Shown here: in pieces, positions 22,514-64,000 of the stretch | Layout of the letters: every line of letters starts with the position of its first letter | How positions within the stretch are numbered: the first letter of the stretch is position 1 | From: Argonema antarcticum A004/B2 | GTDB lineage: Bacteria > Cyanobacteriota > Cyanobacteriia > Cyanobacteriales > Aerosakkonemataceae | Length of the DNA: 64,000 nt | Direction: 5' to 3' | Assembly: GCF_023333585.1 (NCBI RefSeq) | Contig: NZ_JAIQZN010000031.1 | Span: forward strand, 1-64,000 | Made by a program: the position numbers and the translations under genes | Notes under the pieces: generated by a model | Told to the model about the DNA's origin: nothing | Database searches by the model: none | The model's input: the letters and a program-made list of their open reading frames with translations, nothing else

Positions 22514-22528
22514 TTCTTTACTCCAATG

Positions 22529-23140: not shown

Positions 23141-23159
23141 AGTTGCGGTAATAACCCAC

Positions 23160-23715: not shown

Positions 23716-23717
23716 GA

Positions 23718-24263
23718 ATGATGATTAAAAATGAATTAGAGTACCAAGTTAGTCAAGAATGGTTAGAGAAGTTTGAAAAATCTATAGCCGCAATAGAAAA
23801 GGATGAAGATAGTAAAAAAAATGACCATGAGCGATGGAAAATGAACCGAGAGACATTACAATGTCATTTAGAGAAATTGCAAGCAGAAATTGCTGAATAT
23901 GACAGGCTAACATCCCATGATAGCCACACGCCAATAGTGCTAACTCTTGATGATATTGATGATTTACCCCAACTCTTGATTAGAGCTAGAATGGCAGCCA
24001 AGCTAAGTCAAAAAGAATTGGCAGATTTAGCTGGTTTGACAGAAGAACAAATTAAACGTTATGAAGATAACGACTATGAAGATGCTAGTTTTCTGGATGT
24101 AAGATTTGTAATTGATGCGCTGGATATCCAAATTCAAAAAGGTGAGTTTCTTGTTCCTTTGGATACCCTCAGAAGAACGCCAGTTACTAAAGAAGAATTA
24201 CTTTCCTCAAATCAGCGTTCTCATAGCCAACAAAGTCAAGAAATGATTGGACAAGTGCAATAA
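23718..24263 (+). CDS. HTH (XRE) protein paired with the DUF6932-like gene
   Basis: I use the ATG at 23718, where GAGGTGAG forms the SD; a GTG at 23712 overlaps the previous stop. Residues 1-65 form a coiled coil. An XRE-type HTH follows (LLIRARMAAKLSQKELADLAGLTEEQIKRYE). The HTH makes it the likely repressor or antitoxin of the pair. Confidence 0.7.
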   Translation: MMIKNELEYQVSQEWLEKFEKSIAAIEKDEDSKKNDHERWKMNRETLQCHLEKLQAEIAEYDRLTSHDSHTPIVLTLDDIDDLPQLLIRARMAAKLSQKELADLAGLTEEQIKRYEDNDYEDASFLDVRFVIDALDIQIQKGEFLVPLDTLRRTPVTKEELLSSNQRSHSQQSQEMIGQVQ

Positions 24264-34440: not shown

Positions 34441-34827
34441 ATGCCCCGGCAAAAACGAATCGAAAAAGTAGGAATACGCTTAACACCAGAAGAATTTAAA
34501 CTAGCAGAAAAAATGGCTAAAGATTTGGAAACCACCGTCAGCGACTTGTTTCGCTACAAAACCTTAAGAAGTCAACAATTTGGACTCGGTAGTGCAACTT
34601 TGTGCCAAAAACTAGCAGAACTCAATTTACGACTCAAACCAATTGCGACAGCTACCGAACAAGCGCTATGGACGAGAGAAGGAATAACCGAGCCAGCAGA
34701 ACTCAAAGAACTTCTTGAAAAAGCCCTCTTCTTACTAAAACAAGTTCAATGGCAACAAATGAATATAAACTTTTCCATTAATTTATATGAAGAAGACGAA
34801 GATTTAGAAGAATGGGAAGCTAGTTAA
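34441..34827 (+). CDS. mobC: MobC-type RHH relaxosome protein
   Basis: A 128-residue protein that begins with an RHH pattern (VGIRLTPEEFKLAEKMAKDL) and continues in a helical segment. It lies 20 bp before the relaxase gene, the usual position of the accessory protein that binds oriT and helps load the relaxase. Confidence 0.8.
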   Translation: MPRQKRIEKVGIRLTPEEFKLAEKMAKDLETTVSDLFRYKTLRSQQFGLGSATLCQKLAELNLRLKPIATATEQALWTREGITEPAELKELLEKALFLLKQVQWQQMNINFSINLYEEDEDLEEWEAS

Positions 34828-34847: not shown

Positions 34848-36500
34848 ATGATTGGCAAACAAATCATAGGTAAAAGCTTCACGGGACTGCTCAATTACCT
34901 TTTTTCCAAAGAAGGCGCTTCACTGATTGGAGGAAACATGGTAGGAGAGACACCCCAGGAATTAGCAGCTGAATTTCGATTCTCCAAGCAACTGAACCCT
35001 AGAGTGGAAAAACCAGTTTATCATGCCGTCTTGAGCGTTCCCCCTGGTGAATATATACCCGATGCCAAATGGCGGGCGATCGCACTAGACTACCTAGAAG
35101 GAATGGGATTCGATAAAAACCTATTTGCCATTATCCGCCATACAGACCGCGACCACGACCACATTCACATTGCAGCCAGCCGCATCAAATTAGATGAAAA
35201 AGGAACTTGCGTATCCGATAGCTGGAACTATCTACGCAGCGAAAAGTTAATTGAACAATTAGAAGAAAAGTACGACTTGACACCAGCCGATCGAAGTTTT
35301 GATAAAGAACGCCGCTCTCCCACAACTGGCGAACGCCGAAGATTAGCAAGAACAGGGGAAATTAGCACGCGAGAACAACTGCAAACAGCAATTGATTTAG
35401 CGACAGTAGATAGTCCCGCGATCGCTCTTTTAATTGACCGCCTCAGCGAACAAGGCATTAATGTTAAAATAGAACCAACACCCACAGGCGAATTGGGAAT
35501 TAGCTACAAATTAAACGATATAGCTTTTAGCGGCACTCATTTAGGCAAAGCTTACACCTTCCAAGGGCTTCAAAAATATCGAGGAGTCACTTATTATTCT
35601 GAGACTGACATAAATTCAGAAGTTACTGCACAATTACCGATTTCTCAAACAGAAAATAGTAAACCTGATGGGGACGGAAACACAGATAGTGACACTGCTG
35701 GCGATACTGGCATTAATAATATCGAGAACAATACTTTATCTGAGAACTGCAATTTTAACCCAGACACTTACACAATCTCCAAAGTATCTCCAACTGTTGA
35801 ATCAGAAGATGTATCTCAGGATAACCCATTAAATCAAGAGACAAACTCGCCAGACTTAGCCACTCACTGGCAGTCCGTGCGAGAAAGTTTGGTGGAAAAT
35901 ACCTGCTTGCCCCCCGATTTGATCGACCTGCTACACAACAAAGGATGGATAGGCGCAAATGACCAAAACCTTACTGTGTTTACCCTCCGCACGCTTACCG
36001 GAGAGGAAACGGGAAGCTGCACTTTAAGGCCCAATGGAAAATTTTCCATTGGGACTAACGCGGGAACGTCCACTGGAAAACATGACCATAGCGAGAAGGG
36101 CATTTTCTGGATAGCGACTCAAAACGATATTGAAAGAGCCGTCATTGCTAGCGACCCGGTGGAAACGCTGTCTGCGATCGCTCTTGACCCCGAATTCGAT
36201 CGCATACCGACTTTGTACTTAAGCATCGATGCCATATCTTCCTTGCCAACAGAGTTTCTTAAAGACATCTCCGCTATAGCAGTCGGTTTGAAAGGAGATG
36301 AATTTGGCGAAAAATTGTCCAAAGAAATTATCGAAATACTACCTCAAGCCAAGCGAATAAATCCCGGCATTGGTGGATGGAATGAAATACTCGTAGCTCA
36401 GGTTCAAGAAGCTGAAAACCAATCGGATGAAATTGATGAAACAGACGATGTGCCAGAAGAGAGGCTACGCGATCACAGTTCTGGTTTGAGCTTGGATTAA
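34848..36500 (+). CDS. MOBP-type relaxase
   Basis: A 550-residue protein. The relaxase domain has an early LLNYLF tyrosine (Y17) and the metal-binding HxDxxHxHxH signature in HTDRDHDHIHIA (H98-H107). The C-terminal part (LRPNGKFSIG, FWIATQNDIERAVI, IDAISS) resembles a Toprim/DUF3991-like module. The enzyme would nick oriT and lead the transferred strand. A copy of the AATGG palindrome is embedded at 36030-36053, inside the coding sequence. Confidence 0.9.
   Translation: MIGKQIIGKSFTGLLNYLFSKEGASLIGGNMVGETPQELAAEFRFSKQLNPRVEKPVYHAVLSVPPGEYIPDAKWRAIALDYLEGMGFDKNLFAIIRHTDRDHDHIHIAASRIKLDEKGTCVSDSWNYLRSEKLIEQLEEKYDLTPADRSFDKERRSPTTGERRRLARTGEISTREQLQTAIDLATVDSPAIALLIDRLSEQGINVKIEPTPTGELGISYKLNDIAFSGTHLGKAYTFQGLQKYRGVTYYSETDINSEVTAQLPISQTENSKPDGDGNTDSDTAGDTGINNIENNTLSENCNFNPDTYTISKVSPTVESEDVSQDNPLNQETNSPDLATHWQSVRESLVENTCLPPDLIDLLHNKGWIGANDQNLTVFTLRTLTGEETGSCTLRPNGKFSIGTNAGTSTGKHDHSEKGIFWIATQNDIERAVIASDPVETLSAIALDPEFDRIPTLYLSIDAISSLPTEFLKDISAIAVGLKGDEFGEKLSKEIIEILPQAKRINPGIGGWNEILVAQVQEAENQSDEIDETDDVPEERLRDHSSGLSLD
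36030..36053. repeat. AATGG palindrome, copy 2, 24 bp, within the relaxase gene
   Basis: The palindrome is here 24 bp (arms CCCAATGGAAAA / TTTTCCATTGGG). It shares 26 bp of context beginning AAGGCCC with copy 3 near 58518-58541. Confidence 0.7.
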
Positions 36501-47264: not shown

Positions 47265-48015
47265 TTCGGGAGATACTGGAGGTTGCCCCCCGAAAATTGT
47301 CTGCTATTCAAGCCGAACTTCTCTTTATTGAGGGCGGTACTTACATTTTTCACTATCAATCGGGGGAGAGTTCCAAGTATAAATGTTTGTCTCCAGCAAC
47401 TCTGCGAGCAGCTTTTGCCAATACCCCGATTGATTCGGGTTGGATAAACCCAGAATTGGGGTTTTTTGTTGAGGTTACTCTCATGGACGTTTTAAACCGA
47501 TTGATTCGGGTTGGATAAACCCAGAATTGGGGATAGTACGTTGGGGAACTGGTAGCGCCGGGGAATGGACAATTAAATTCGTGCCACCTCAGAAACACAA
47601 AATAAATTTATTGGAATCAAAGCACTTGGTTCCTTTACCAGCAATGGTGTTTTTGGGGTTGAAATCTGATTACTGGGTTTGGGCAATTAAAGGCTCGAAA
47701 TTTGACCCGGAAGCAGAAGCTTTTCACGTTCCGCTGCCTAATGTATATTTGCATTCCTATCAACCCTGTGGACGCATCTGCTGGGGAGATAATAAACCAC
47801 CTCTAGCTTCACCCAATACGATTACAAAAGCTTGGGAATTGTTTATCTCTAGTCCTTTCAACGGGCATTTAAGTGACGGCAAATCTAGGGCGCAACCCAG
47901 TGATGTGCGCGTGCAGATACAAAAGGCAGTTAAACGTTCATCTTACCCAGTTAAAGATTTAATTAGCACGAACCAAACAATTGCCAAATTAGTTGCAGCC
48001 ATAACTGATGATTGA
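47237..48015 (+). pseudogene. PRTRC protein B (E2-like, Prok-E2 family), interrupted by a 71-bp insertion
   Basis: The first frame (47237-47518, 93 residues) and the second (47527-48015, 162 residues) are the two parts of one PRTRC B protein. The join should read AFANTPIDSGW...IVRWGTGSAGEW, as in the family. A 71-bp segment flanked by 36-bp direct repeats (47426-47461, 47497-47532) shifts the frame by two; removing one repeat unit restores an unbroken frame of 235 residues, the family's usual size. PRTRC B is grouped with prokaryotic E2-like proteins. A TTG at 47527 could start the C-terminal part alone. Confidence 0.8.
47426..47532. repeat. 36-bp direct repeats flanking a 35-bp unique segment
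   Basis: Two exact copies (47426-47461 and 47497-47532) surround 47462-47496. Both copies contain GATTCGGGTTGGATAAACC. The repeat period is 71 bp. The unique segment has no evident counterpart nearby. Confidence 0.9.
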
Positions 48016-48739
48016 ACTAGCAAACCTGAATCCATACAACCTAGAATTGGTCGATTATAAGATTATCAAACTCGGAAACAATCTGCCGCCTCATTCTAGC
48101 AGTATGTTTGAGTATCTGATTGGAAGCAATGGCATCTTTGCTAGAGCGGTTAGACCGGGATTAGAAGTAATAATTCCGGTGGAACTTTTTACCGCGTCAA
48201 TCAGAGGATTAGAACCAATTGAACCTTTAGTCCGATTAACTCCCGGACGAATTCCTCAGCAGATACTCATCCAAATGTGGAAGGAAAGTTGTATCGCAGC
48301 GCTTGCAGAACCGCCGTTAGAAATCACTTTCCACATTCATCACGTTCAAGAGCAATGGCAACTTGTAATTCCAGAGCAAACGCAAAGTTCTGGTCAATGC
48401 AGAGCGACAGAATACGGTTTAGATTCCTCATACATTAATGCCACTGTAGAGGTACATTCGCACAATCGGATGGCGGCTTTCTTCTCTGGTGCAGATGATG
48501 CAGATGAAGGGGGTTTTCGCATTTTCGCAGTTTTAGGGAAAGTGACTGAATCGAGTGCTGAAATTATTTGCCGAGTGGGAGTTTATCGGCAATTCTGGCA
48601 CGTTCCGGCTGACTGGATATTTGAATTGCCTAGTTTTATTGTAGATGTCACAGTTGGCGGAGAAAAAGACGATTTGATTTCTAATTTTTACTCCTGTTCT
48701 GTTGCGCCATCTTTGTTAGATGACCCTATCGAATTGTAA
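48008..48739 (+). CDS. PRTRC protein A, JAMM/JAB peptidase
   Basis: A 243-residue protein. The C-terminal half has EVHSHNRMAAFFSGADD, an exact HxHx7Sx2D JAMM motif (H150, H152, S160, D163). JAMM proteins remove ubiquitin or process Ubl precursors. The N-terminal domain is typical of PRTRC A. The start overlaps the PRTRC B end by 8 bp, and the E1-like gene follows 22 bp later. Confidence 0.85.
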   Translation: MIELANLNPYNLELVDYKIIKLGNNLPPHSSSMFEYLIGSNGIFARAVRPGLEVIIPVELFTASIRGLEPIEPLVRLTPGRIPQQILIQMWKESCIAALAEPPLEITFHIHHVQEQWQLVIPEQTQSSGQCRATEYGLDSSYINATVEVHSHNRMAAFFSGADDADEGGFRIFAVLGKVTESSAEIICRVGVYRQFWHVPADWIFELPSFIVDVTVGGEKDDLISNFYSCSVAPSLLDDPIEL

Positions 48740-48761
48740 ACAACATTTGGAGATTTACCCC

Positions 48762-49592
48762 ATGTTTAATTATGATTATTTGTCAGCTTCACCTTTGATT
48801 ATCAGACAAACCGATTCGATTGACTTTTGGCTAATTGGGGCGGGAGGAACTGGTTCTTGGCTGTCTTACCATATTGCACGACTGGCACGGAGTTTGGGCA
48901 AGTCGGGGAAGAAGGTGCAATTTGCGATCGCAGATCCCGATATAGTTGAAGAAGCCAACATCAGCAGGCAGGCTTTCTGCGACAAGGAAATTGGACTGCC
49001 CAAGGCGCAGGCTCTAGCTTTGAGATACTCTATAGCTTGGGGAGTGGACGCGACGGCTTTTGTGCAGGAATTTGACCCCAAGTTGATTCGCTATGCCTAC
49101 GACAAGCTGACTATCCTGGTAGGGTGCGTGGATACGGCAGCCGGGAGAGCGGCTATTAACCAGGTTCTTGAGTTAAACCAATTTTACAGCCGTTCTGAAA
49201 TCCCTTGCGTGTGGTATTTGGATTGCGGGAATCATGCCGCAGCCGGACAAATCTTGCTGGGCAGTTCTTTGGAAACTGACCCGGAGTTCTATAATTTTGG
49301 AGGGCTGGGATGCGCGAGGCTACCATCTCCGATGCTTCAGGCTCCTGACCTTTTGAAACCGAAGCCAGAAGAGTTGACAAATAACCTATCTTGTGCTGAG
49401 ATGGTAATGCTGAACTTGCAGAGCGAGAGCGTGAATGTTCGGGTGGCGGCTGAGGCGGCGGATTACCTGTACCGGATGGCTGCGGGGAATCTTAAGCGGT
49501 TTGCGACCTATTTTGATTTGGAGAGTGGGACAGCGCGATCGCTCTGCATTACCCAGCAGTGTATATGGAAAGCGTTTAAGCCCAACTCTTGA
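48762..49592 (+). CDS. PRTRC ThiF-like E1 activating enzyme
   Basis: A 276-residue protein from the ATG at 48762 (GGAG upstream); the frame is open from 48720. The nucleotide-binding loop is LIGAGGTGS (24-32), then ADPDIVEEANISRQ, and VGCVDTAAGR. These are the E1/ThiF signatures for adenylating a Ubl C-terminus. A cysteine in WYLDCGNHAAAGQ could take the thioester. It completes a set of Ubl, E2-like, JAMM and E1-like genes. Confidence 0.88.
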   Translation: MFNYDYLSASPLIIRQTDSIDFWLIGAGGTGSWLSYHIARLARSLGKSGKKVQFAIADPDIVEEANISRQAFCDKEIGLPKAQALALRYSIAWGVDATAFVQEFDPKLIRYAYDKLTILVGCVDTAAGRAAINQVLELNQFYSRSEIPCVWYLDCGNHAAAGQILLGSSLETDPEFYNFGGLGCARLPSPMLQAPDLLKPKPEELTNNLSCAEMVMLNLQSESVNVRVAAEAADYLYRMAAGNLKRFATYFDLESGTARSLCITQQCIWKAFKPNS

Positions 49593-49797: not shown

Positions 49798-50175
49798 ATG
49801 GATATTGAATCAATTAAAGTAACTTCCGAAGAAATTGCTCAATTTCGGACTGAATTGGCAGGTTATGCCAGTGCGATCGCGGCATTGGATGTCATCGAAG
49901 AAGAATGTGAGGGGTATCTGGAAGATGCTATCCCATTGTTACTAATGCGAGAAACCAGCACTGAAGCTGATAGATCGCTTAGTGATTTATTGGAAAAATG
50001 CCGTAAGTTTATTTGTCAGGAGGAAGTTAGAGAAGCTCTGGAATCAGGAATGATTGCACCCGCAATAGAGCCGATTTCAATGGGGGCTGGTATTCCTCCG
50101 GGTGTAGCAACGGCGATCGGTATTTGTGCTTTTAAATTGGGAATGAAGAAGGTTTGTGCTGATTGTGCTGACTAA
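49798..50175 (+). CDS. Unknown acidic protein (125 aa)
   Basis: I start at the ATG at 49798 because translation from 49612 gives non-protein-like sequence first. The protein has an acidic helical part (ALDVIEEECEGYLEDAIPLLLMRE), then a Gly/Pro segment (ISMGAGIPPGVATAIG) and ends CADCAD. It overlaps the end of the convergent CHAT gene by 4 bp. Function unknown. Confidence 0.6.
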   Translation: MDIESIKVTSEEIAQFRTELAGYASAIAALDVIEEECEGYLEDAIPLLLMRETSTEADRSLSDLLEKCRKFICQEEVREALESGMIAPAIEPISMGAGIPPGVATAIGICAFKLGMKKVCADCAD

Positions 50176-53100
50176 ATCCCTGTAGCTGTAAAACCTGCCC
50201 AGTAGTAGGGATTGGCAAAGGGATGGGGTTGGCGTTGTCTGATTTGTTTCAATGATTCTTGATATATTGTGCGCTGTCCTGGTCGCAGTGGAGCAAGATA
50301 TTTGTCTATTTGCGATTGATATTGCTCCAGAAATTCGTCTAATTTCTCAATGGTTAAATTCTGCAACCAATCTTGAGCTTCTTTGAGGGCAACTGCTACG
50401 GAAATGTTGAGATTAACATCGAATAAAATCTCATAAAATTTAATCATCAAGAATGAAGTTGATAAATCATTGACTGTCCACAAACTACTGACAACGCTTG
50501 GACTTCCGGCAAATAGAAAACCACTGGGCAAACCAATATATTCATCGCTGATAGACTTGGGATCGATTAATCCGGTTTCGCAAGCGGAAAGGGTGACAAG
50601 GCGACATTGATTGAGGCGAAGTTCAAAGATTTCGCCTAATGTTAAGGGTTCTTGATTCGCTAAAAATAAGGCTGATTTAAGGGGATTATTGGGGTTAAAG
50701 CCTCCATGACAGGAGAAATGATGGCAGTGGTTATTTGAGGATTTTAAGTGAGTGATAATGGTGTTTTTGGTGGCGTTATCTTTGGCAATAATTTGGCTTT
50801 CAGTAAAGAAGTTTGAGAGGATATTAACTTCTAGGTCGGTGTAAAGTAAGTCTTTAGTTGGGTTTTGGATGGCAAACAGTTTATTAAAGTCGGAATGGTG
50901 GAAACTTTGGGCGATTTGTAATAGTTGGCAACTGGGAGCGTATTGTACGCCATTGGGGAATAAATCGTGTAAATCTTGAGCATTTGCTCCTGCCCCAAAC
51001 TTCAAAATGTGGGAGTTAGAGATGGGGAAGGCGTGTAAGGGTAAAATATGTAAAAACCAATGGGGAATAATAATTAAGCGTTTACAAGTATAGGGAATGA
51101 GGGCAAGAATATCATTAATATTTAGGATGTCGGCAAAGGTTTGGAGGAGGTTAGAAAGTTGATTAATCCATTCTGTCTTGCCTGTTTCGGAGTAGTAAAG
51201 CTCCACATAATTAATGATCGCATCACCTAATTGATTTCTCTCATCTTCTGAAGATTGCCAAACTTTAATATCTCCATTAGCAGATACCACAAAGGCTAAT
51301 ATTTTCTCGCCTGTGATATACCACTGTAGCAAACAGGTTTCTGCATCGGTTAAAGCCTTAATCTTTGTAAATGGGATCGGCTCAACTTTTTGAGTAAGGC
51401 TAAAAAGAGGATCAATCGGTTTAATTTCTCTCTCAATAAAGCTATCTAATTCTTGTTGATATTGCTTTAGATAATTTTGATCTTGAACATAGGGGGTTAG
51501 GTTATCACTACGCATCAACTTTTGATTAATGCTTTGACTTTGTAAGCTCATTTTTTCGTTAACGACTTTTTGCTTTAATTCATTTAATTGCTCAATAATT
51601 TCTTGACTAACACCCTGGGGTTGTAGGTTTTTCTGGGTCATTAATTCGACAAGGTTACGCCCTTTACTGCGTTCAATATATTCTAAGGCTTTCTCTGGTT
51701 GATTAAGATTAAGATGTGCTTGTACAATGCCATGAAAAATATCAATAGCATTAGATAAAACTTCTTGGCGACTTTGGGGATTAAGGGCTTCTAAACGGGC
51801 ATTTTCTACGGCTTTAATGGCGACATGATAGGCTTCTGTGGCGGGTTGCCATTGTTTTTCAGTGTAGTATAAAATGGCTAAATTACGGGCAGTTAGCAAA
51901 CAATCTAAAGGAGTATCTTCTATTGTGCGAATTTTTAAAGCATTGTGATAAAACTTGATTGCTTGCTTTAGATTGTTAGCTTTATCCCCTTTAATTCTGA
52001 AAAGGTAAGCATTACCAAGATTATTTTGCGTGCTTGCCCAATCTTGGGGGAAGTTATCAAAAGTTCTAACTTTTAGAGATTCGGTATAAGCCACGATTGC
52101 TCGTTCTAAATTGTCAGTTTTATCCCCTTTAATTCTGAAAAAGTAAGCATTACCTAAATTATCTTGTGTACTTGCCCAATCTTGAGGAAAACCATCCAAA
52201 GTCCTGACTTTCAATGCTTCTTCAAAACATATAATCGCTTGTTCTAAATTATCAGCTTTATTCCCTCTAATTCTTTGACAGTAAGCACCACCTAAATTGC
52301 TATTTGTTATTGCCCAATCTTGAGGGAAATCATCCAACGTCCTGACTTTCAATGCTTTTTTAAAACATATAATTGCTTGTTCTAAATTATCAGCTTTATC
52401 CCCTCTAAGTCTCTCTGAGTAAGCAACAGCAAGATTATTTTGTGTATTTGCCCAATCTGGGGGAAAAGCATCCAAAGTTCTAACTTTCAATGCTTCTTGA
52501 TAACATATAATCGCTTGTTCTAAATTATCAGCTTTATCCCTCTAATTCTGTTTGAGTAAGCAACAGCTAAATTGTGTTTTGTGGTTGCCCAATCTGGGGG
52601 AAAAGCATCCAAAGTTCTAACTTTCAACGCTTCTTGATAACAGATAATAGCTCGTTCTAAATTATCGGCTTTATTTCCTGTAATTCTATTTGAATAAGCA
52701 TTACCAAGATTATTTTGCGTGCTTGCCCAATCTGGGGGAAAAGAATCAAAAGTCCTAACTTTCAATGCTTCTTTAAAACAGATAATAGCCTGCTCTAAAT
52801 TATCAGCTTTATTACCTCTAATTCTGTTTGAGTAAGCAACAGCTAAATTGTGTTTTGTCCCTGCCCAATCTTGGGAAAATGACTCAAAAGTCAATACATT
52901 CAGTGCTTTTTTATTATAAATGATCGCTTGTTCTAAATTATCAGCTTTATCCCCTCTAATTCTGTTTGAATAGACATTAGCAAGATTACTTATTATCTTA
53001 GCCCAATCATGAGGGAATAATTCAAAAGTTAGCACCTTCAGAGATTCTTGATAATAGATAATCGCTTGTTCTAAATTATCAGCTTTATCCCCTCTAATTC

Positions 53101-53722
53101 TTTTTGAATAAGCAATAGCAAGATTAGTTTGTAATATTGCCCAATCTTGGCGAAATTTTTCAAATGTTAATATCCTTAAGGCTATTTGATATCCTATAAT
53201 AGCAAGTTCTATGTTATTGGCAATGCTGCCGAGAGAATATTGTTCAATTAAGCTACTAAAATCAAAAATAACATCAGCAATATATTCAGATTCTTTTGGA
53301 GCAACGGATGATAGAGTATTTTTTGCCCAACTATCCAGAATTTGTATTAAATTATCATTTAATTTATCAAGATTTTGCGCCCAAAAGGGATAAATCACTT
53401 GAGGATCAGGATTTTCTGAAACTTTTTGTAATATCTCCATCAAGAAATTGAAATAGTCTTGAGGGGTGTTTGCGCTTTCAGTTGGGTTGTTATCCAATAA
53501 CCCTAATGCTTGTGCTAACTGTTGCGCTATATTCATTAACCATTGTGCGTCATTTTCCCTTCCTGCTCTCTCAAGTTGTCGTGCTACCCCTATCATTACC
53601 TCGATCAATCCCTGATCCAATAATTCCTCATTTTCCTGTAAAATTCGGGGTTCATCGCCTTCATTGCAGGATAATAATTGATCAATCAGGTTTAGGTAAG
53701 CTTGGGTGCGTTGTTCATTCAT
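50172..53722 (-). pseudogene. TPR-CHAT protease protein with a 1-bp frameshift
   Basis: Two frames, 52520-53722 (400 residues) and 50172-52490 (772), make one protein of about 1183 residues. The N-terminus is helical, followed by about nine 46-residue TPR-like units (ADNLEQAIICFKEALKVRT). The C-terminal CHAT domain has HHFSCHGGF and LVTLSACETGL, the caspase-like His/Cys pair. The frame breaks where one repeat has CCC in place of the CCCC of its neighbours (52538-52541), so a single base is missing. CHAT-TPR proteins act as proteases in several defence systems. Confidence 0.8.
51960..53200. repeat. Tandem 138-bp repeats within the TPR-CHAT gene
   Basis: Units of 138 bp encode near-identical 46-residue TPR modules. 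The spacing of the GCCCAATC block between 52451 and 52588 is 137 instead of 138, locating the lost base. Confidence 0.75.
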
Positions 53723-54625: not shown

Positions 54626-57600
54626 ATGGTCGCCACAGTTGTTACCGAACAAGGACTCAAGATTCCCGTTTTCGATGCCGCTTACACTGATGCCAAAGGT
54701 CGAAATGCAGGCAAATTTTTCAACAATCCAGAAATCCTGCGCCACTCAATTCTGCAAGCAATGTTTGAGCCAGAAGAACTGCACTCATTAATGATAGTCA
54801 AACTTGACAAATCCAATCCCGACCCTCACCAATTACGCGCCAGCATCCACGACCCAGAAGACGGAATTAAGCGACGCATGATATTCCAATCAGGCAACAG
54901 TTATTACTTTGGTAACGAAACCCTAGCCAAAAAGATAGGAGACTTATTCGTAACCGAAAAAGACACCGCCTGTCGCTACGGTTCCCTTCTCGTCAGCACT
55001 TGTATGTCCGGCGTATCAGAATGCGACCATCTACGACTAAAAATTGTTGATTTCACCGACCCACAATATGCTAAATATCGAACCGGAGACTGTCACGGTG
55101 CAATCAGTTCCGACTTACTCAAAAGCATCGGCGGTGAGAAAAATCGAGCCAGCCAATTTCGTTTCGCTTGGCTACGCAGTTGGAATACAGAAAATACAGA
55201 ATCCACACCCCAAGTCAGCTTTCTAGCTAAAGGAACCCTCCGTCCCGATGACAACTTACTCGACTCCTTAGCCGACTCCAAAGGTAACAAACCCCAACTA
55301 ATTTTAGACCGTTCCAGCATCAAAGGCATCAATAAAAAACAACTCACAGAACTAATTCCTTGTGGCGATTACCAACTACCCAAAGCCATCCTTGGCAATC
55401 GCAAAAACAGTCAAATCGGCATCACCCAAACAAGCTGGCAATCCACCGGAGTTTGGTTCGATGAAGAAGCCCAAAAACAAGACTTAGTACCAGCAGCTAA
55501 AGCCGAAGCTCAAAGACTAGCAGCACTGCAACGCGACCCGATGAAATTGCGCCAAGTCATGATTGAAGATTACGATAAACGCGAGGCATTTTTAGCGCGT
55601 TTAAACGAAAGAAAACTCAAAGAACAACAGGACAAAATATCACCTACAATTGACGACGAAATCAACGGTGATAGTGAAGAAAATACCGAGGATAAAAAGC
55701 GGGAAAGACAGGACATCCAGATGCTAAAAGCCGATAAATTTGGACTAATGATAGGCAGTCCCGAATTCACCAATATGGCAGAAAGGTGGCTGGCATCCAA
55801 ATGGCGAAATCTGGCAACCAGAGGCGCTTTATCAATGACTTCAGCAATGGCTTTACCCTGCGAAGATTTACCTAGAGGTACGGTTTGCGCTCACCATTTA
55901 AAAGCAGGAGAATGCGTTCAAGGTCGATTCCCAATTCTCAACAAAGATGGTCTGAGAATATATCAAAATGTACACGCAAAAAACCTGGAAAATATTCCAG
56001 AAGAAACCCGCACTGTCATGGCGAAAATTAAAGGTGTAATTTGGTTCCATCCCAAAGACTTAGAAAAGTTCCATCAAGGTGATTTTGACGGTGACGAACC
56101 CTTTGGCATCGAATCTCGAAAACTCCCTCACATTGCCCAACAAATCTTACCTCCACAAGACAAATTATTTGACTTCGGGGAAGTGGTACAAGCTGAGAAA
56201 GTTCCCTATACTAAAGCTAAGTATCGAGAAGACGACCCCGAAGTTAGAGAAGGTAAAGTTAAAGCAGGTCAACGCAAATTTACCACCCTAGAACAAATCG
56301 GAGTTGCCAGTTCTCAAAATGAAGTCGGAATCGTCGCTTTAGCCATCGGTAAAGTAGCAGCAGCACTCCCCAACCCCGGCGAAGATGAAAAGCTATTTCT
56401 CAAACAGCAGAAGCGATTTATCGCCGCTCTCAGCATCATGGAACAGTACGAAGTTGACTACCAGAAAAACTCGCTGCGTGGTAAAGATGCTAAAGAAATA
56501 AAAGAGAAAACAGGTTTAAATCCCGATACTTTACTCGAAAAAGTAGATGAATGGTGCGAGAAACATAAAAGCTGCACTTACTTTTTCCAGTATAAAGGAG
56601 ATGACAGACTGTACAAACAATTTCCCATGCCTGCCGACTTCCCCAATGCTGTTTACGTCTTAGCCAAAGAAGCCGTTAATCCTTATTGGGAACAAACGCG
56701 ACTCATCCACCGTAACCGAGATGAATTTCAGCACATTCTTCCCCCAATTCCGGCTCATTTAATCGTGTCAAAAGACAATCGTAAGGAACTAGATGCAGCA
56801 GGCATTGAGTACGAAAAAGAAGGCAAAGAATTGCACGTTCCATATCAGTACAAAAATGCCCTAGTAGAGCGAGAAATCGACTACCGCCACAGCAAAGAAA
56901 ATGATTTACATTGGGAAGAAAACGAATTACAATGGGCGAAAGACTTGGTGCAACGCTTTCAAGAAGACAAAAGTATTATCTACGATCGCACTGGCAACGA
57001 TATCAAAGCTCGAAAAGAGGAAATGGGCAAACTCTATGACAGTTATAGAGCCGAAATTGACGAAATTTGGGATACACCTGACAGAAAAACTAGGGCTGCT
57101 CATGCTTTATTCCAAGCGACCCACACTTCCGATAATTTAAGCAAACATCGGACAATTTGCCAGAAAGTAGCAGAGGAATTAGAAATTACCTTTTCGCTAC
57201 AACAAGACTACGAATTACTGCACGAAGCCTTGCCGCGAGATGTCTACGTTCTCCAAGTTCCTTTCCAAAAAGTGAAAACCAAAGATGGCAGAACCATTGA
57301 CCTACCTAACCAATGGAAAGACGCACTCGATAGCAAAGGAATTGCCTACGAAGCCACTGCTCATCCCGAATTACCGCTAGTTGAATTCGCCTTCAAAAAC
57401 TTACCCCAAAGTATGGTAGCGAAACTTGATGCCAAATACGGAGATAATTCCAACTACCATATCGACACCGACTCTCTGAAAGTAACCAACTACTCCGGTA
57501 ATGAAACCCGACTCCTCATCGTTCCTCCCGTCGATTGTCGGTGGATTGAATCTCAAGATAAAGCAGGTAGAGGCGCACTTGTTTACAAATTATTCATGGA

Positions 57601-58477
57601 TGAAATCTGCCATGCTTTGTCAAATTATCGGGTCAATCAAATAGAAGTTGTTAATGTCAAACATCCCGATAATGACTACTCTGAAGAAGATTTTTCCAAA
57701 TCTAAATGGCAGGAGCAAAAAGTTACTTTGCAAGTGGGAACGATCGATTTACCTCCCACTCACGAAAAGTATTACCGATTTCAAGGCACTCCCATTATCC
57801 AGTTGGACGGAACAAATTTGGGTACATTCTCCCCCGACAGCCCTAAGTTGCCCCCTGGAACTACTTTCGAGGCAACGCTTTCTTCTGATAAGGGTGGTAG
57901 GTCGGTTATGCTGAAGATCGATCAGGAGTCGATCCAGTTGCCTGAAACTCAATTGCCACAAATCGATTCACCTTCTGCCATTGCTCAAAGCGATCGCGCG
58001 GAGTACAGCGCCAAGAGCGATAATGCTACGCATCGCTGTCGCGAACGCACGCCCCAACCACCACAACAAGCTTCAAAATCAGAAACAGCAGTTAATAACG
58101 CAAAACGCGACACCACCAACGCTAAAGCTGACAAATGGCGGCTTTCTCTGCAAGAAACGCTCTTTAGCGTTGTTTCGGAAACCCACAAACAATGTAAATC
58201 GCACCTTCCTTCCGATAGTACCCAACACTTCAAGTTTGGCGATAACCAATGGACGGCTTACGTGCAGCCGAACGGGGATTGCTTTGTCAGAAACGAGTCC
58301 AAGCGCACCGTGTTTAAAGCCAACGTCCACACCGGGGATGTTCAAATTCCCCTGACAGAGCAAGCAGCGGCTCGTTTCCAAGAGATGATAGTGGAGCGAG
58401 AAAAAGCTTTGTCCCAGTCCCGAACTGCGATCGCGCCTGCGTTTGAATCGAAACCGAGGGAGTTGGAAATGGTTTAG
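54626..58477 (+). CDS. Single-chain two-barrel RNA polymerase-like protein (QDE-1/RDR/YonO type)
   Basis: A 1283-residue protein. Residues 484-490 are HQGDFDGD, the DxDGD metal-binding motif (D486, D488, D490) of two-barrel RNA polymerases. It is preceded by a second-barrel-like RFPILNKDGLRIYQN and KGVIWFHPKDLEKF. The first barrel region at 155-235 shows DCHGAISSDLLKSI, QFRF, AKGTLRPDD (K202) and LILDRSSIKG (K233), in the order of the eukaryotic RDR landmarks (G-IS, QIRY, KG, L-RxSMxK). A coiled-coil insertion (287-370) lies between the barrels. The C-terminal 300 residues are unknown. Activity on DNA or RNA cannot be told. Confidence 0.7.
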   Translation: MVATVVTEQGLKIPVFDAAYTDAKGRNAGKFFNNPEILRHSILQAMFEPEELHSLMIVKLDKSNPDPHQLRASIHDPEDGIKRRMIFQSGNSYYFGNETLAKKIGDLFVTEKDTACRYGSLLVSTCMSGVSECDHLRLKIVDFTDPQYAKYRTGDCHGAISSDLLKSIGGEKNRASQFRFAWLRSWNTENTESTPQVSFLAKGTLRPDDNLLDSLADSKGNKPQLILDRSSIKGINKKQLTELIPCGDYQLPKAILGNRKNSQIGITQTSWQSTGVWFDEEAQKQDLVPAAKAEAQRLAALQRDPMKLRQVMIEDYDKREAFLARLNERKLKEQQDKISPTIDDEINGDSEENTEDKKRERQDIQMLKADKFGLMIGSPEFTNMAERWLASKWRNLATRGALSMTSAMALPCEDLPRGTVCAHHLKAGECVQGRFPILNKDGLRIYQNVHAKNLENIPEETRTVMAKIKGVIWFHPKDLEKFHQGDFDGDEPFGIESRKLPHIAQQILPPQDKLFDFGEVVQAEKVPYTKAKYREDDPEVREGKVKAGQRKFTTLEQIGVASSQNEVGIVALAIGKVAAALPNPGEDEKLFLKQQKRFIAALSIMEQYEVDYQKNSLRGKDAKEIKEKTGLNPDTLLEKVDEWCEKHKSCTYFFQYKGDDRLYKQFPMPADFPNAVYVLAKEAVNPYWEQTRLIHRNRDEFQHILPPIPAHLIVSKDNRKELDAAGIEYEKEGKELHVPYQYKNALVEREIDYRHSKENDLHWEENELQWAKDLVQRFQEDKSIIYDRTGNDIKARKEEMGKLYDSYRAEIDEIWDTPDRKTRAAHALFQATHTSDNLSKHRTICQKVAEELEITFSLQQDYELLHEALPRDVYVLQVPFQKVKTKDGRTIDLPNQWKDALDSKGIAYEATAHPELPLVEFAFKNLPQSMVAKLDAKYGDNSNYHIDTDSLKVTNYSGNETRLLIVPPVDCRWIESQDKAGRGALVYKLFMDEICHALSNYRVNQIEVVNVKHPDNDYSEEDFSKSKWQEQKVTLQVGTIDLPPTHEKYYRFQGTPIIQLDGTNLGTFSPDSPKLPPGTTFEATLSSDKGGRSVMLKIDQESIQLPETQLPQIDSPSAIAQSDRAEYSAKSDNATHRCRERTPQPPQQASKSETAVNNAKRDTTNAKADKWRLSLQETLFSVVSETHKQCKSHLPSDSTQHFKFGDNQWTAYVQPNGDCFVRNESKRTVFKANVHTGDVQIPLTEQAAARFQEMIVEREKALSQSRTAIAPAFESKPRELEMV

Positions 58478-58523
58478 TCGAGTGCAGGGGGTTGGAAATT
58501 TGAGGGCGATCCTGGAAGGCCCG

Positions 58524-58539
58524 ATGGAAAATTTTCCAT
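58524..58539. repeat. AATGG palindrome, copy 3 (16-bp core)
   Basis: ATGGAAAATTTTCCAT follows GGCCCG and lies about 40 bp after the polymerase-like gene. Confidence 0.65.
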
Positions 58540-58639
58540 TGAGTTATGTCACTGACTTGTCACACACTTTACTACAAGGATGCCAACTGACTGCTTGTAG
58601 TGAAGCGAAGCCGAAAAAAGCACCTAAAAAAGTAGGTAA

Positions 58640-58858
58640 TTTTGTGCATTTTTTACCTACTTTTTCCTACTATTTCCTCCTACTACCTTTTTTTTCCTAT
58701 TTATTCCTACTTTCGAGCTTTTTTGGTAAACCTTATTGCGAATAATTCTTGTTTTTGGAGGGATTTTATGCACATCTAGCACTACTCGTCTTCCCCTTAG
58801 TTTGGCAGCAAGCCATGTCAATTGTACGCACAAAGGCAAAACTTAAATATTTATACTG
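58640..58858. repeat. Decamer-repeat non-coding locus, copy B
   Basis: Six decamers (consensus TTTTTCCTAC, with one irregular unit) fill 58651-58710. TTGCGAATAATTCT (58736-58749), TTTTGGAGGGATTTT (58753-58767) and CAAGCCATGTCAA (58809-58821) follow at exactly the spacing of copy A (offset 45,489 bp). It lies between the polymerase-like gene and the second mobC-like gene. Confidence 0.7.
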
Positions 58859-59373
58859 TGTTGTAGCTATTCTTGATGCCTGTTGCAGCAGATTCTAGAA
58901 GTTTGGCTAAGGATTATATCCAAATTCCAACAGCGATCGCACCCCTAACCAATCGCCTGTGGGTGCTTGCCCTATTTCGTAAGTGTAGCCAATATCCCAA
59001 AAGCTGAGGGTATAGATGATGCGATCGCCCACTTCCGCCAGCTAAACCAGCCGCCTCTACTGCTGCTAGTGCGTTAGAGCGCTCTCAGCCAAGTGGACGA
59101 TACACCCCATTCCGATAGGTTCCAATTTATCGGAGTTTTGGCCGAATCAAACATAAACCGAAAGAAACAACCTTATTTCAATCGCTATTGCTGAAAATTA
59201 AAGCAATGCCAGCAATGGATAAATTAACGCGAACCTTACAAATCAAGGTTTAGTTACTTCAGTCGTTCTCCGACTCATAAACCTAACAAATACTTGGTTT
59301 AACTAACCATTGCATCGAATAATCCTGGCATCAAATCTCAATACACAACCGCTATTAACTCAACTTAACTAAT
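58859..59373. other. Non-coding region before the second mobC-like gene
   Basis: A minus-strand, start-less run of about 43 codons (58907-59040; AEVGDRIIYTLSFWDIGYTYEIG) is protein-like and probably a gene scrap. Otherwise I see HIP1 sites and a short inverted repeat around CGATA...TATCG (59117-59136). Confidence 0.35.
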
Positions 59374-59769
59374 GTGCTTACAACCACAACTAATCCAACC
59401 AAAACTTTACCGCCCAAAAGCGGACGAACTGAAAACGTTCGAGTACGCTTAACAACCTTAGAAAAGGAAGATTTAACGAAACGGGCAGCAGAAGCAGGCG
59501 AAAAAACCGTCTCTGATTACCTGCGGAAACGCGCTTTTAATTGTGTCTATACCGTACCTGCTATCAACGAACAAGCCTGTGCCGAACTGCGGAAAATGGG
59601 TACGCACCTTTACCAAATGACAAGGTTTGTAGAAAAAGCAGTACAAGCCGGACAAATCCCCATTCAAAGCCTTGAAGTTCTACAAGAATTCAGCAAAACG
59701 CTGGGTGAATATCACCAAGAACTAAGAGGCAAAATCGTCAGTGAATTCCTCACTGAACCAAATACGTAG
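59374..59769 (+). CDS. Second MobC-like RHH protein
   Basis: A 131-residue protein, GTG start. The RHH segment NVRVRLTTLEKEDLTKRAAEAGEKTVSDYLRKRA and the helical segment LRKMGTHLYQMTRFVEKAVQ match mobilisation accessory proteins. It is the first of a plus-strand run of transfer genes and lies downstream of decamer locus B, which it could bind as an oriT-like site. It differs clearly from the 34441 MobC. Confidence 0.72.
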   Translation: MLTTTTNPTKTLPPKSGRTENVRVRLTTLEKEDLTKRAAEAGEKTVSDYLRKRAFNCVYTVPAINEQACAELRKMGTHLYQMTRFVEKAVQAGQIPIQSLEVLQEFSKTLGEYHQELRGKIVSEFLTEPNT

Positions 59770-59789: not shown

Positions 59790-61988
59790 ATGCCTACCAA
59801 ATCCACAAGTAAACCCAGACAATTTTCCGCCCCAAAACGCGATTGGTCTGTGCTAACAGCCACAGAACCCAAGCACGTCAAAAGATTAGAGCATATTCAA
59901 GAAACTCTCGATACTGCCATCGAAGCAATCCAAGAAGACGGCGGTATTGAAGACTGGGAAGAGTTCAAAAACTTTATTGAATCCTTCAACAAGCGTCCTG
60001 ACAGAATCAACGAATCTGGAAATCAAAAAGCCAGTATCAGCGTAGACTTAGTTGCTGAAGGAAAAGGTGATGAAGTTTCAGGCTTTGTTTTCTACTTAAC
60101 TAAAGACCCCAGCCATAGAACCAGCGGTGTCTATTTAGTTAAAAACCTCAAACAAGCAGGAGTTGAAACTAAAGAAAATAACAATTACTACACTCCATCT
60201 AATGTGATGGATTTAATCGGACTAGAAGCCAGCGATGAATTAGAAGATGACGAACTTTCAGAAGATTTTGATGACGATTTAACCGATTTAGAAGAAGATG
60301 AAGAACTGCCAAAACCCAATAAAACAGCCAGCAAATTATCTAAATCGAAATCGGCACCTTCTCGCCAGAATACCAAACAATCCCCAAAGCAGGATGAAGA
60401 TGATATTGACCAACTCCTATCCGATGACGAAGATACTCCAATGACAACTGGAGTATTGGGTAAGATAGCTAAAAATCGCCACACCCAAAAATCAATTAAT
60501 AACACCGAACCCCAACAATCCGAACCCAAATATCCCCTGCTTGACTCACTTGAAACTTTCCTCAAAGAAACCGAACATCAGGGCGCGATCGCAACCACCA
60601 GAGGCAGTGAAATCAATGGCATAACCGTAACTGGTTTAACCGTTCAAAGCGCAACTTTAATGGGTCTAATTGGTGCTAAAACTGTTAGCGACTTAATCGA
60701 TTATATCAAACAAGCGAGAGAGAAAGAACAAGCTAACAAACTAGAAGACATCCTCGAACAAATTGACTCATTAAACCAACGAACCGATCGCGTTTCTGTT
60801 CGCGTACAGCAAGCCGATGTCATTGCAGACATGAAAGCAATAGACGATCGCACCGAAAGACTTGCCGAACGCACTAAACAGGTATTAGATCCCCCTGCTA
60901 CAACCCTGCCAGAACACCTCGAAATAGAGGAACACGCCAAAAAAAACGGTTCGCACCATATTAACACTGATGAAATCATAGTCACTCCCACTCAATCCAG
61001 CGCCGTTCAAATAGGAGAAAAAATCGACAATTTAGGGCAAAAACTTGACCCCAAATACAAACAATCGCCACCTCTACAGATAGATAAAGATGCCAACATC
61101 AGCGAACAACTAGACCAAATTCAAAAATATTTAGGCAACCTGTCGAAAAGACTAGACCGCCTAGAAACAATCGTCGATGAACTAGAGCAAAAAATCGCCA
61201 TTAACCCATCCATTGAACAGACTAATTCAAAAACACCTGTGCCTCAAATTACCACACCTAATCCAGCCCTCATAGAAGACGAACCAGAAGATCTTCTTAC
61301 CAAAATCGTGACTCAAACCAAAGTACAACAACAGCGAGAGACGGTAGCAGATTGCTTAGTCAATTATGCCTTCGCTAGCGGACAATCCCCTCAATCGGGA
61401 ATTCCCTTCGATGACGGCGGCATTCTCTATGTTACCGCCGAAAAAAACAAAGTTAATCTTGCTATCAAAGGCAGCGATGGTAACGAAATCTTCTCTGGAA
61501 CCAAAGAAGGCGAACGCTGGAAATTCGCTCAAGACAAATTAACTCCAGAAGAAAGAGATACCATCTTCAAATTACCTCAATCCGAAGCAGAATACGACAA
61601 ACTCGCCACCGCCCAAGCACTCGTTGACAAATTTCAAAACACCTTTCCCAAACGCTTCAGCGGCGAAAAAGACCCCGTATTTCCCTGGCGAGAACCGCGC
61701 CGGGAAGACGGTACTCCTGGGGCGGTCAAATACGAATTTGAAATCTTGGATTTGCCCGACGGTTCTAAACAACTAATCGGAACCGACCCCCGCCAAAGCG
61801 ATGCCCAAGTCTTCGATGCCGTTCTGGTCAAAGGAAAGCCTCCAGACATTCGAGAATCCCACATCTCGATAGAAGAAATGGAAGCTTTAATCGGTTTCCC
61901 AGAGAAAGAAAACACCCACAGCAGAAACTCCCGCAAATATACCCCGCCAGAACAATCAAAAGAAGACGAAAACGAACTACAAGCTTAA
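59790..61988 (+). CDS. Large acidic coiled-coil protein of the transfer region
   Basis: A 732-residue protein. It has a short helical N-terminus, acidic tracts (ELEDDELSEDFDDDLTDLEEDEEL), coiled-coil segments around 300-340 and 440-470 (ISEQLDQIQKYLGNLSKRLDRLETIVDELE), and a C-terminal domain with strands (SGFVFYLTKDP is near the N-terminus; GILYVTAEKNKVNLAIKGSDG and KYEFEILDLPDGS near the C-terminus). Unknown function; its position suggests a structural or coupling role in conjugation. Confidence 0.55.
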   Translation: MPTKSTSKPRQFSAPKRDWSVLTATEPKHVKRLEHIQETLDTAIEAIQEDGGIEDWEEFKNFIESFNKRPDRINESGNQKASISVDLVAEGKGDEVSGFVFYLTKDPSHRTSGVYLVKNLKQAGVETKENNNYYTPSNVMDLIGLEASDELEDDELSEDFDDDLTDLEEDEELPKPNKTASKLSKSKSAPSRQNTKQSPKQDEDDIDQLLSDDEDTPMTTGVLGKIAKNRHTQKSINNTEPQQSEPKYPLLDSLETFLKETEHQGAIATTRGSEINGITVTGLTVQSATLMGLIGAKTVSDLIDYIKQAREKEQANKLEDILEQIDSLNQRTDRVSVRVQQADVIADMKAIDDRTERLAERTKQVLDPPATTLPEHLEIEEHAKKNGSHHINTDEIIVTPTQSSAVQIGEKIDNLGQKLDPKYKQSPPLQIDKDANISEQLDQIQKYLGNLSKRLDRLETIVDELEQKIAINPSIEQTNSKTPVPQITTPNPALIEDEPEDLLTKIVTQTKVQQQRETVADCLVNYAFASGQSPQSGIPFDDGGILYVTAEKNKVNLAIKGSDGNEIFSGTKEGERWKFAQDKLTPEERDTIFKLPQSEAEYDKLATAQALVDKFQNTFPKRFSGEKDPVFPWREPRREDGTPGAVKYEFEILDLPDGSKQLIGTDPRQSDAQVFDAVLVKGKPPDIRESHISIEEMEALIGFPEKENTHSRNSRKYTPPEQSKEDENELQA

Positions 61989-62007: not shown

Positions 62008-62667
62008 ATGCAACACAATTACCAAACCACCAACTTTATGACACACAAACGCCGCCATCCATTCAACCAGTTTATGCGTAAATTCAAACTCAATAGTGCT
62101 GACTTAATATTCATCGCAGTTTGCCTAATTGCAGCAATTTACTTAACCCTCGTTCAGCCTTTATTTGTCAGCGTATTCGGCTGCGCTACTTTACTATTCT
62201 TTGCCCTTTGGCAGATTGTTCGCACTGTTCCCATTCTCGAAAAACTATTAGGCAGCAAAATTCGATATTGGCATTTAGCTACCGCTGTAATTACAGTGAC
62301 AGCTTTACTCAACAACTTCCAAACTCCAGCCCAAGCAATTTTCCTAAGCGGTCTGCAACAATTTATGACCAATCTAGCAACTGAAGCAGGTGCTGCTGGA
62401 GGAGGAACAGCCGTTGATGCTACAACGATAGCTTTAATTTTCAATGCCATCCGAGGCATATTTCTCCTATTAGTAGCCGCCGCCGCTTTATTCGCCTATA
62501 ACCAAGCACAACAAGGAAACGATTGGCGACCAATTGTAACCCAAGTCGCCCTAGCCTTCGGCATAGTTATCGCCATTGATGTTGTCACCTTTTTGTTCGT
62601 CGGCAACGGTACTGGCAGCACAACTGGATTCATCCCAATCCCCCACTTTGTTAGCACAATTATGTAA
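62008..62667 (+). CDS. Multi-spanning membrane protein of the transfer region
   Basis: A 219-residue protein with four or five hydrophobic segments (LIFIAVCLIAAIYLTLV, VFGCATLLFFALWQIV, ATAVITVTALLNN, IFLLLVAAAALFAY, VALAFGIVIAIDVVTFLF). The middle carries a Gly/Ala-rich loop. Size and layout suit a pilin-like or inner-membrane component of a type IV secretion system, but no family is recognised. Confidence 0.6.
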   Translation: MQHNYQTTNFMTHKRRHPFNQFMRKFKLNSADLIFIAVCLIAAIYLTLVQPLFVSVFGCATLLFFALWQIVRTVPILEKLLGSKIRYWHLATAVITVTALLNNFQTPAQAIFLSGLQQFMTNLATEAGAAGGGTAVDATTIALIFNAIRGIFLLLVAAAALFAYNQAQQGNDWRPIVTQVALAFGIVIAIDVVTFLFVGNGTGSTTGFIPIPHFVSTIM

Positions 62668-62694: not shown

Positions 62695-64000
62695 ATGACC
62701 TTAAGAGATCCCGAAAAAGACTTTATCAGAATCAACAAAATCCTGGGAAAACAGGCAAGTATTGGCTTCATTCCTGCCAACCAAATCGCCCCTTGGTTTT
62801 TTCTAACCGTCATTTCATATATATTGACGATGGGTTTTTTCAACTTAGGATTAGGTTGGTTCTTTACAGTCTCACTTTGGTTAATCGTCAGTTGGTGGCT
62901 TCTAACAGGAAATCAACCCCATCTATTCACCGACAAATTACGAAAACCTCCTGGCAACGAGTGGTGCAACGGCGACAGTCTCTACATTTCTCCCATCCCT
63001 TCTCTGCGTCCTACCAGCCTCCAAGGTAAAGCCTACGATTCCCAAATCCGAATCAAGCTAAAACCTAAAATCGTCCCCAATCAATCTGGAGGAAATAGCC
63101 GATTTATGCCATTCCAAAACGAAATTAACCTCTGTTGTTTAGTCGAAATCGATAAAGATGGTAGACAAGTATCGGGAATGCTCCTCAATAACGGTTCAAG
63201 CTACCAACTAATATTCGGATTTCGCACCCAAGGACTCCATAACTTACTTTTCAAAAGCGAAGTATCCAACTTTGCAACTTCCATTGAAGAGGGAATGAAA
63301 GATATCCTTCCCGGTGAAAAAATCACCTTCTGCACTGGTTGCTACAGCGACGATAACGCCAGACGCAAACAGCTTGAAAACTTAGCCGATACTGCTAACC
63401 TTAAACCCGTTTCCGTACTCATCCGAAACGAACAGCGACGCATTCAACAACTAACCCATAAAGGTAGCAGACAAATCTGGGAACAAATCGCTTTCTGCAC
63501 TTGGACAGCCGATGGCGAAGGCGAACAAACTTCTAGAGATTTGATTGGCAAAGCTATTGATGGTGTAAAAAATTTGTGGGATGCACTTCTCGGAACGATT
63601 ACTGGTAACACCCGAATCTATAAAGAACAGTTTTACACCAAACTCTTGCTTAACGCTTTTGAACAAGGATTCATTCGTTGGGAAATTCTCCTAAACACCA
63701 AAATGGGATTAGAAATCGCTCCCATGAATACAGCCGAACTTTGGGAATGGCTTTGGCAACGGTTTAACAATGATGAACCTCCCGCAGTACCTCAAATTGT
63801 CAAATTAACAGAAACATCCACAGGCTATAAACTTAGCGAGAAAAAAACAACAGAAAAACACATTTGTACCGTCTTAATCGAAGGAATTAATGGCGTATCT
63901 TCCTGTCCCGAACATCGCCAAAGTAACAACCGCGTCTATTTAGCAGGAAAAGGTAAAGAATGCGGTGTTTTAACCATGTACGACGCACCCACAGGCTGGA
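62695..64000 (+). CDS. Transfer protein, cut by the window edge
   Basis: AAGGAG lies six bases before the ATG at 62695. More than 435 residues are visible and the frame is open at 64000. Two hydrophobic helices (about 33-75) follow a short cytoplasmic segment, then a large soluble domain (RIKLKPKIVPNQSG, IWEQIAFCTWTADGEGE, YTKLLLNAFEQGFI). The size fits the N-terminus of a VirB4/TraC-like conjugation ATPase, but no Walker A is visible in this part, so the call is tentative. Confidence 0.55.
   Translation, partial: MTLRDPEKDFIRINKILGKQASIGFIPANQIAPWFFLTVISYILTMGFFNLGLGWFFTVSLWLIVSWWLLTGNQPHLFTDKLRKPPGNEWCNGDSLYISPIPSLRPTSLQGKAYDSQIRIKLKPKIVPNQSGGNSRFMPFQNEINLCCLVEIDKDGRQVSGMLLNNGSSYQLIFGFRTQGLHNLLFKSEVSNFATSIEEGMKDILPGEKITFCTGCYSDDNARRKQLENLADTANLKPVSVLIRNEQRRIQQLTHKGSRQIWEQIAFCTWTADGEGEQTSRDLIGKAIDGVKNLWDALLGTITGNTRIYKEQFYTKLLLNAFEQGFIRWEILLNTKMGLEIAPMNTAELWEWLWQRFNNDEPPAVPQIVKLTETSTGYKLSEKKTTEKHICTVLIEGINGVSSCPEHRQSNNRVYLAGKGKECGVLTMYDAPTGW

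Follow-up and report, generated by a model that had tools for sequence, protein, structure and literature searches.

The window analysed here is a stretch of 64,000 nucleotides, positions 1 to 64,000 of a 72,355-base contig of the cyanobacterium Argonema antarcticum A004/B2, whose genome comprises 7.74 Mb. At 54626-58477 on the plus strand it carries an intact open reading frame (ORF) of 1283 residues with an ATG start. A first-pass annotation had read the product as a plasmid-encoded, single-chain RNA polymerase (RNAP) with two double-psi barrels, and we found the motif series behind that reading at the positions claimed: GAIS (GxIS) at residues 158-161, QFR at 177-179, KG at 202-203, LDRSSIKG (LxRSxxK) at 227-234 and DFDGD at 486-490. 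DFDGD (56081-56095, plus strand) holds the predicted Mg2+-binding aspartates and aligns with the sequence NADFDGDQMAV of the host rpoC1. Two motifs can be added to that series, R-x-P at residues 434-436 and Q-x-x-V-D-x-x-K at residues 607-614 (56444-56467, plus strand), the latter closing a long predicted helix. Both line up with YonO of Bacillus phage SPbeta, D611 and K614 being aligned with D625 and K628 of that protein. Computation identifies the product as a putative single-chain two-barrel RNAP, because its key residues are invariant in the family, its profile matches that of YonO and its predicted core matches the fold of two-barrel polymerases.

Residue conservation was counted in 62 family sequences aligned by profile, namely the ORFs of loci L001-L049 (our locus labels), of seven phage contigs and of nine further loci from the search of the phylum. 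This alignment includes duplicates and overlapping pieces, and each count refers to the sequences covering the site. The DFDGD block, whose conservation in homologues the first-pass annotation had held to be decisive, is conserved throughout, with D486, D488, G489 and D490 identical in 60/60 sequences. P436, N448, G568 and K614 are likewise identical in 60/60, and Q177, R179, K202, G203 and K233 in 59/59; Q607 and D611 each reach 59/60, and R434 is found in 52/60. The same columns score 24/24 in a hand-picked alignment of the 1283-residue protein and 23 of 46 ORFs, which leaves out fragments and near-duplicates. Because the catalytic residues are invariant across the family sequences, the motif is more than a chance occurrence.

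The protein is also under purifying selection. Against seven close orthologues, the ratio of nonsynonymous to synonymous substitution rates (dN/dS) is 0.08-0.17 for the whole protein and 0.07-0.15 over the first 750 alignment columns, and we therefore conclude that the protein is maintained by selection. The C-terminal tail (residues ~1111-1283; 57956-58474, plus strand) is variable, with dN/dS of 0.29-0.60 in six orthologues; the seventh is devoid of it. These data, together with the invariant catalytic residues and the fold matches described below, make it very improbable that the protein is a remnant, be it inactive or structural, or that its motifs match by chance. Decay of a copy may have occurred elsewhere in the same genome: a second polymerase gene, on contig C36 (locus L063, 1612-3666), is 44% identical and stops at 685 residues, whereas its nearest relatives run to ~1200 residues. 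A VirB4 homologue lies downstream of this copy too.

Single-sequence and family searches gave little. Pfam and NCBIfam scans of the 1283-residue protein assigned no family (no Pfam family at E <= 1), and searches of PDB sequences returned nothing useful by profile and one chance match, at E 1.7, by single sequence. Among the phage protein families of PHROG, the protein matches phrog_34895, of unknown function, at E 2.3e-15 over residues 145-527. It has no match at E <= 1 to phrog_8308, the YonO family proper, which is matched weakly (E 0.024) by the homologue at locus L045. The putative kinship with the YonO family is visible through profile-profile comparison only. Profile A1, built from 15 cyanobacterial proteins, was compared with a YonO alignment of five phage proteins (SPBc2, Perkons, BUCT082, PMBT24 and TR-TP1), and the two are co-linear from residue ~57 to 700, with an hhalign probability of 97.0 and a score of 100. 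Pairwise hhalign E-values cover a single comparison, and the match was judged instead by controls, in which reversing the YonO alignment gave a score of 20 and shuffling columns, 30 times, a best score of 22. K233, R434-x-P436, DxDGD, G568, D611 and K614 are in register in this alignment; K202, the lysine of KG, is not. Profiles A2 and A6 also recovered YonO (probability 95), as did the joint 24-row alignment (97), and the link rests on these profiles and A1; profile A7 found it weakly (55). In the host rpoC1, A1 matches best at the active site, NADFDGDQMAV, with a probability of only 21, and the YonO profile missed this site in the same protein.

According to the available text of PMC5467207, YonO is a proven single-chain DNA-dependent RNAP. 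It shares with our protein the order of blocks (KG, a second lysine, RxP, DxDGD, a glycine and VD/ID-xx-K), and differs from it in sequence, with 13% identity in the profile alignment, and in setting, being encoded among phage late genes as opposed to a plasmid transfer region. In phage phi3T (L066), yonO is annotated at 20904-23811 as two frames of 204 and 625 residues with a gap between them. The annotation of Corynebacterium phage BFK20 names no two-barrel protein.

We modelled residues 89-710, the core of the protein, from an input alignment of 13 sequences. The resulting model is of moderate confidence, with a predicted local distance difference test (pLDDT) of 63 and a predicted template modelling (TM) score of 0.61. 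Its barrels mostly reach pLDDT 73-91; values fall to 46-62 just before DFDGD and in a loop of barrel one. The first predicted double-psi barrel (residues ~128-261; 55007-55408, plus strand), the strands of which appear in both this and a longer model, holds the invariant lysines K202 (55229-55231) and K233 (55322-55324) in its strands. The second one (residues ~408-496; 55847-56113, plus strand) presents DFDGD in a loop and aligns with the barrels of RNAP beta-prime/Rpb1 at Z 9.2-10.0. The helix ending in QxxVDxxK, a candidate for the bridge helix and the start of the trigger loop, spans residues 588-616, with pLDDT of 40-62.

Searched against PDB with Foldseek, the core model gave 19 matches at E <= 0.001, all to QDE-1, RDR2, P74 gp62 or gp64, with best E-values of 3.2e-10, 1.1e-9, 3.3e-7 and 4.6e-7, respectively, and modest TM-scores (0.29-0.44 by query length). 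In VIA-align, RDR2 reached Z 14.6 over 306 residues at 4.1 A, followed by gp96 (14.5), gp64 (14.4) and QDE-1 (14.3), and multisubunit RNAPs were matched mostly by the second barrel alone. The matches to QDE-1, RDR2, gp62, gp64 and gp96 extend across both barrels of a single chain. The predicted core is hence not a fold devoid of double-psi barrels, and two such barrels in one chain are supported at the level of prediction, given the moderate confidence of the model. Altogether, the likeness to eukaryotic RNA-dependent RNA polymerases (RDRs), QDE-1 and YonO that the first-pass annotation had noticed in the motifs is borne out by the fold matches and the YonO profile match. PolD, YonO and crAss-like gp66 chains were not among the structure matches listed, which excludes nothing. 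A library of viral structures returned 11 matches at E <= 0.001, among them a protein of P23-45 and phage proteins that bear the name 'RNA dependent RNA polymerase'. A nameless protein of Microcystis phage MaMV-DC (BFVD model A0A075BUT7_2) matches the core model at E 2.4e-3 and probability 0.94, and is perhaps another two-barrel polymerase, judging from the models.

Since the nearest folds are QDE-1 and RDR2, eukaryotic RNA-silencing enzymes of fungi and plants, the protein could be an RDR-like enzyme that copies RNA, with double-stranded or small products that serve in defence or regulation, and defence-type genes do occur at some loci of the family (for example CD-NTase and SAVED in L038). 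We consider such a function distinctly unlikely. Identity to QDE-1 and RDR2 is 11-16% in the structure-match rows, and the protein, encoded on a bacterial plasmid, has no match to Pfam RdRP (PF05183) at E <= 1; the only PF05183 match in its genome lies on another contig and is below the cut-off (E 0.41). Moreover, the conserved downstream neighbours that can be named are conjugation genes, no search having been aimed at RNA-silencing genes, and the titles of PDB entries show that structures of QDE-1 with DNA templates exist too.

Thermus phages offer other counterparts. The non-virion RNAPs P23-45 gp64 and P74-26 gp62 share the single-chain two-barrel fold (Foldseek E 3e-7 to 1e-6), and VIA-align extends this likeness to gp62, gp64 and the virion RNAP of P23-45, gp96, at Z 14.2-14.5; identity to these proteins of Thermus phages is 10-13%. 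In the available text of PMC10770324, gp96 is described as the N-terminal part of the tail tape measure protein. Multisubunit RNAPs share the second barrel with NADFDGD and, unlike our protein, carry their two barrels in separate subunits, beta and beta-prime.

Genes 84-92% identical to ours are found in Microcoleus, Kamptonema, Planktothrix and one further cyanobacterium, with close plasmid copies on pOSC7112.01 (90%) and on a Planktothrix agardhii plasmid (84%). With tblastn (E <= 1e-5), relatives were detected in 53 plasmid records, all of them cyanobacterial (53/53), of which 25 are typed as conjugative, 14 as mobilizable and 14 as non-mobilizable. Genome by genome, in a search limited to the phylum of the host, a family member is present in 15/60 related genomes and in 40/386 genomes of the phylum (profile A1, E <= 1e-5), both counts including the genome studied here. 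Some members are encoded on contigs several megabases long and, because of this length, are probably chromosomal.

Phages encode shorter relatives. GenBank phage records yielded no tblastn match, and alignments A3 and A7 retrieved nothing useful from viral contigs; seven IMG/VR contigs encode members of 732-808 residues (five measured of the seven), as compared with 1283 residues here. Those of L050, L060 and L061 match phrog_34895, the profile shared with our protein, and the L060 member has a further match, at E 7e-4, to phrog_4291 ('RNA-dependent RNA polymerase'). A sigma-factor gene lies near the short polymerase in both phage contigs scanned for it (L050:4099-4761 and L060:2420-3070), and L056 has a tape-measure-like gene and a helicase gene nearby, which suggests that these contigs belong to tailed phages. 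On L050, L053, L056 and L060, the next product after the polymerase is very long (1861, 1951, 1884 and 1429 residues, respectively); those of L050 and L056, the two scanned, have no PHROG match.

A maximum-likelihood tree of 30 rows, arbitrarily rooted, resolves three clades. Clade I contains the 1283-residue protein (12 rows, support 100/100), a second clade groups the short proteins with the members from phage contigs (5 rows, 100/98), and a third is mixed, with often long proteins of up to 2581 residues (13 rows, 100/99). The positions of L044, L049 and the phage member L061 are unsure because of their long branches. Locus L049 (9761-17107), on a conjugative plasmid of Gloeothece, encodes a homologue of 2448 residues with an RNase H domain at 2017-2147 (Pfam E 2e-29).

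The polymerase of clade I is plasmid-borne, and the arrangement of genes around it suggests a plasmid function connected with transfer. Downstream of the gene, on the same strand, lie a NikA/MobC-like relaxosome accessory protein (59374-59769; Pfam PF21983, E 3.8e-13, above the cut-off), which corresponds to the mobC-like neighbour of the first-pass annotation, two conserved neighbours of unknown function, of 732 residues (59790-61988; homologues in 7/19 compared loci; no confident family) and 219 residues (62008-62667; homologues in 6/19 loci), and a VirB4/TraC-like type IV secretion ATPase. The latter occupies 62695-64000 of the window and continues to contig position 65901; its NCBIfam TraC match, at E 3.8e-10, is far below the curated cut-off, and homologues occur in 8/19 loci. 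A TrbI-like gene in the same direction, matched below cut-off, lies beyond it. Farther upstream, also on the plus strand, a second NikA-like protein (34441-34827; PF21983, E 1.2e-4, below cut-off) adjoins a MOBP-type relaxase (34848-36500; NCBIfam MobB E 1.3e-24 and TraI_MobP E 1.8e-20, both below the curated cut-offs).

This arrangement recurs. A VirB4 homologue is located 3-6 kb downstream of the polymerase in 8 of the 19 loci compared, and all eight are among the 13 loci that belong to clade I or are nearly identical to its members. The setting in a transfer region, as first proposed, is accordingly upheld by the NikA-like and VirB4/TraC-like genes. Of seven plasmid records with clade I members that we examined, five are typed as conjugative, MOBP and MPF_T, one as mobilizable and one as non-mobilizable. 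The linkage to VirB4-type genes also bears on the idea that the polymerase transcribes a stress-responsive set of host or plasmid genes, unlinked to transfer. In the available text of PMC5467207, such a role is proposed for YonO-like proteins, both cyanobacterial ones and those of other bacteria, and the members on multi-megabase, probably chromosomal, contigs speak for it. With a VirB4-type gene downstream in 8/13 clade I loci, we regard it as quite unlikely.

Based on these observations, we propose, as a fairly probable interpretation, that the protein is a catalytically intact two-barrel polymerase of conjugative cyanobacterial plasmids, which copies plasmid DNA into RNA for transfer or establishment and does so without host sigma factors. 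The fold is predicted, the set of catalytic residues is complete, the gene is under purifying selection and most clade loci show a linkage to type IV secretion genes. From these data we infer that the protein would synthesize RNA, that DNA would be its template, that it would act independently of a sigma factor and that it would have a role in plasmid transfer. As judged from the sequence, DFDGD would bind magnesium and the lysines of the first barrel would take part in catalysis. By analogy with YonO and the RNAPs of P23-45, the enzyme would extend RNA 3' ends, and the RNA made on plasmid DNA may serve as primers or short transcripts for transfer or establishment. A more specific version, in which the protein is the plasmid counterpart of phage virion RNAPs, seems doubtful to us: it would act on, or travel with, the single strand that passes through the type IV secretion system, and would make the first RNA of the recipient, either primers or leading-region transcripts, without host sigma factors.

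Several observations weigh against our proposal. The closest folds are QDE-1 and RDR2, and RDRs copy RNA. The core model is only moderately confident, with pLDDT 60 in the block directly before DFDGD, and a longer model, of residues 1-1110, is poor (pLDDT 52). With the latter, Foldseek found no PDB match at E <= 0.001, and VIA-align gave Z <= 8.4, mostly to beta-prime/Rpb1 barrels and QDE-1. Profile A3, which represents the long-protein clade, missed YonO when used alone (hhalign probability 0.5, score 24). In 5/13 clade I loci there is no VirB4 gene in the downstream DNA covered, which amounts to 7.5-10 kb in L033, L035, L042 and L044; L032 ends inside the 732-residue gene, 7.4 kb downstream. 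Finally, no multi-copy promoter-like motif was found among repeats in 33000-64000 or 12-mers in intergenic DNA of the contig, a search that degenerate motifs would escape; the commonest intergenic 12-mers are palindromes, at two places each.

The polymerase could also act mainly as a primase, providing primers of RNA for the synthesis of complementary strands or plasmid DNA instead of transcribing genes. A gene for a family-A DNA polymerase is present at 883-2679 of the contig, DNA polymerase III subunit genes lie near the polymerase on two other plasmids (L040 and L043), and the RNase H fusion of L049 would suit both the making and the removal of primers. This fusion fits primers or the handling of hybrids, as a single case: Pfam detected RNase H in 1/5 third-clade homologues scanned, and none in the 1283-residue protein. 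In addition, the available text of PMC5467207 and PMC10770324 describes YonO and the enzymes of P23-45 as RNAPs that transcribe. A mainly priming role is in our view rather unlikely, and we favor the copying of plasmid DNA into RNA for transfer or establishment.

The first-pass annotation knew single-chain members from phages and eukaryotes. Both remain on the list, which was incomplete: single-subunit two-barrel RNAPs of phages and fungal linear plasmids (PMC7281927) and YonO-like proteins of cyanobacteria (PMC5467207) are already in print, as far as the available text of these papers goes. Our searches of open-licence papers listed nothing on a link between a single-chain two-barrel polymerase and conjugation genes; therefore, as far as we have seen, this kind of polymerase is known and its conjugation-linked variant is new.

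During conjugation, primases of the host or the plasmid and the host RNAP are generally held to make the first RNA on the incoming DNA. If our proposal is true, a group of cyanobacterial plasmids contributes a stripped-down RNAP of its own to this process. With this family, the branch of the eukaryotic RNA-silencing polymerases also gains many bacterial sequences, which is useful for tracing the origin of this branch, and the 1283-residue polymerase is a possible simple transcription tool.

Other features of the locus deserve mention. The 896-base gap between the polymerase and the NikA-like gene (58478-59373) contains the palindrome ATGGAAAATTTTCCAT, which is also present at 32521, at 36026-36051 and on other contigs, as well as a 205-base stretch 73% like 13164-13368; our guess is that this gap is a candidate transfer-origin region. 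Upstream of the polymerase, at 47527-49592, genes for E2-like (Prok-E2_D), JAB-like (below cut-off) and ThiF proteins stand in a row. This cassette, which we take to be the PRTRC cassette, recurs on related plasmids, with ThiF in 7/19 loci. Between the cassette and the polymerase, tandem units of 138 bases at 51849-53251 span a CHAT-domain/TPR gene (50172-52490) and a TPR gene (52520-53722).

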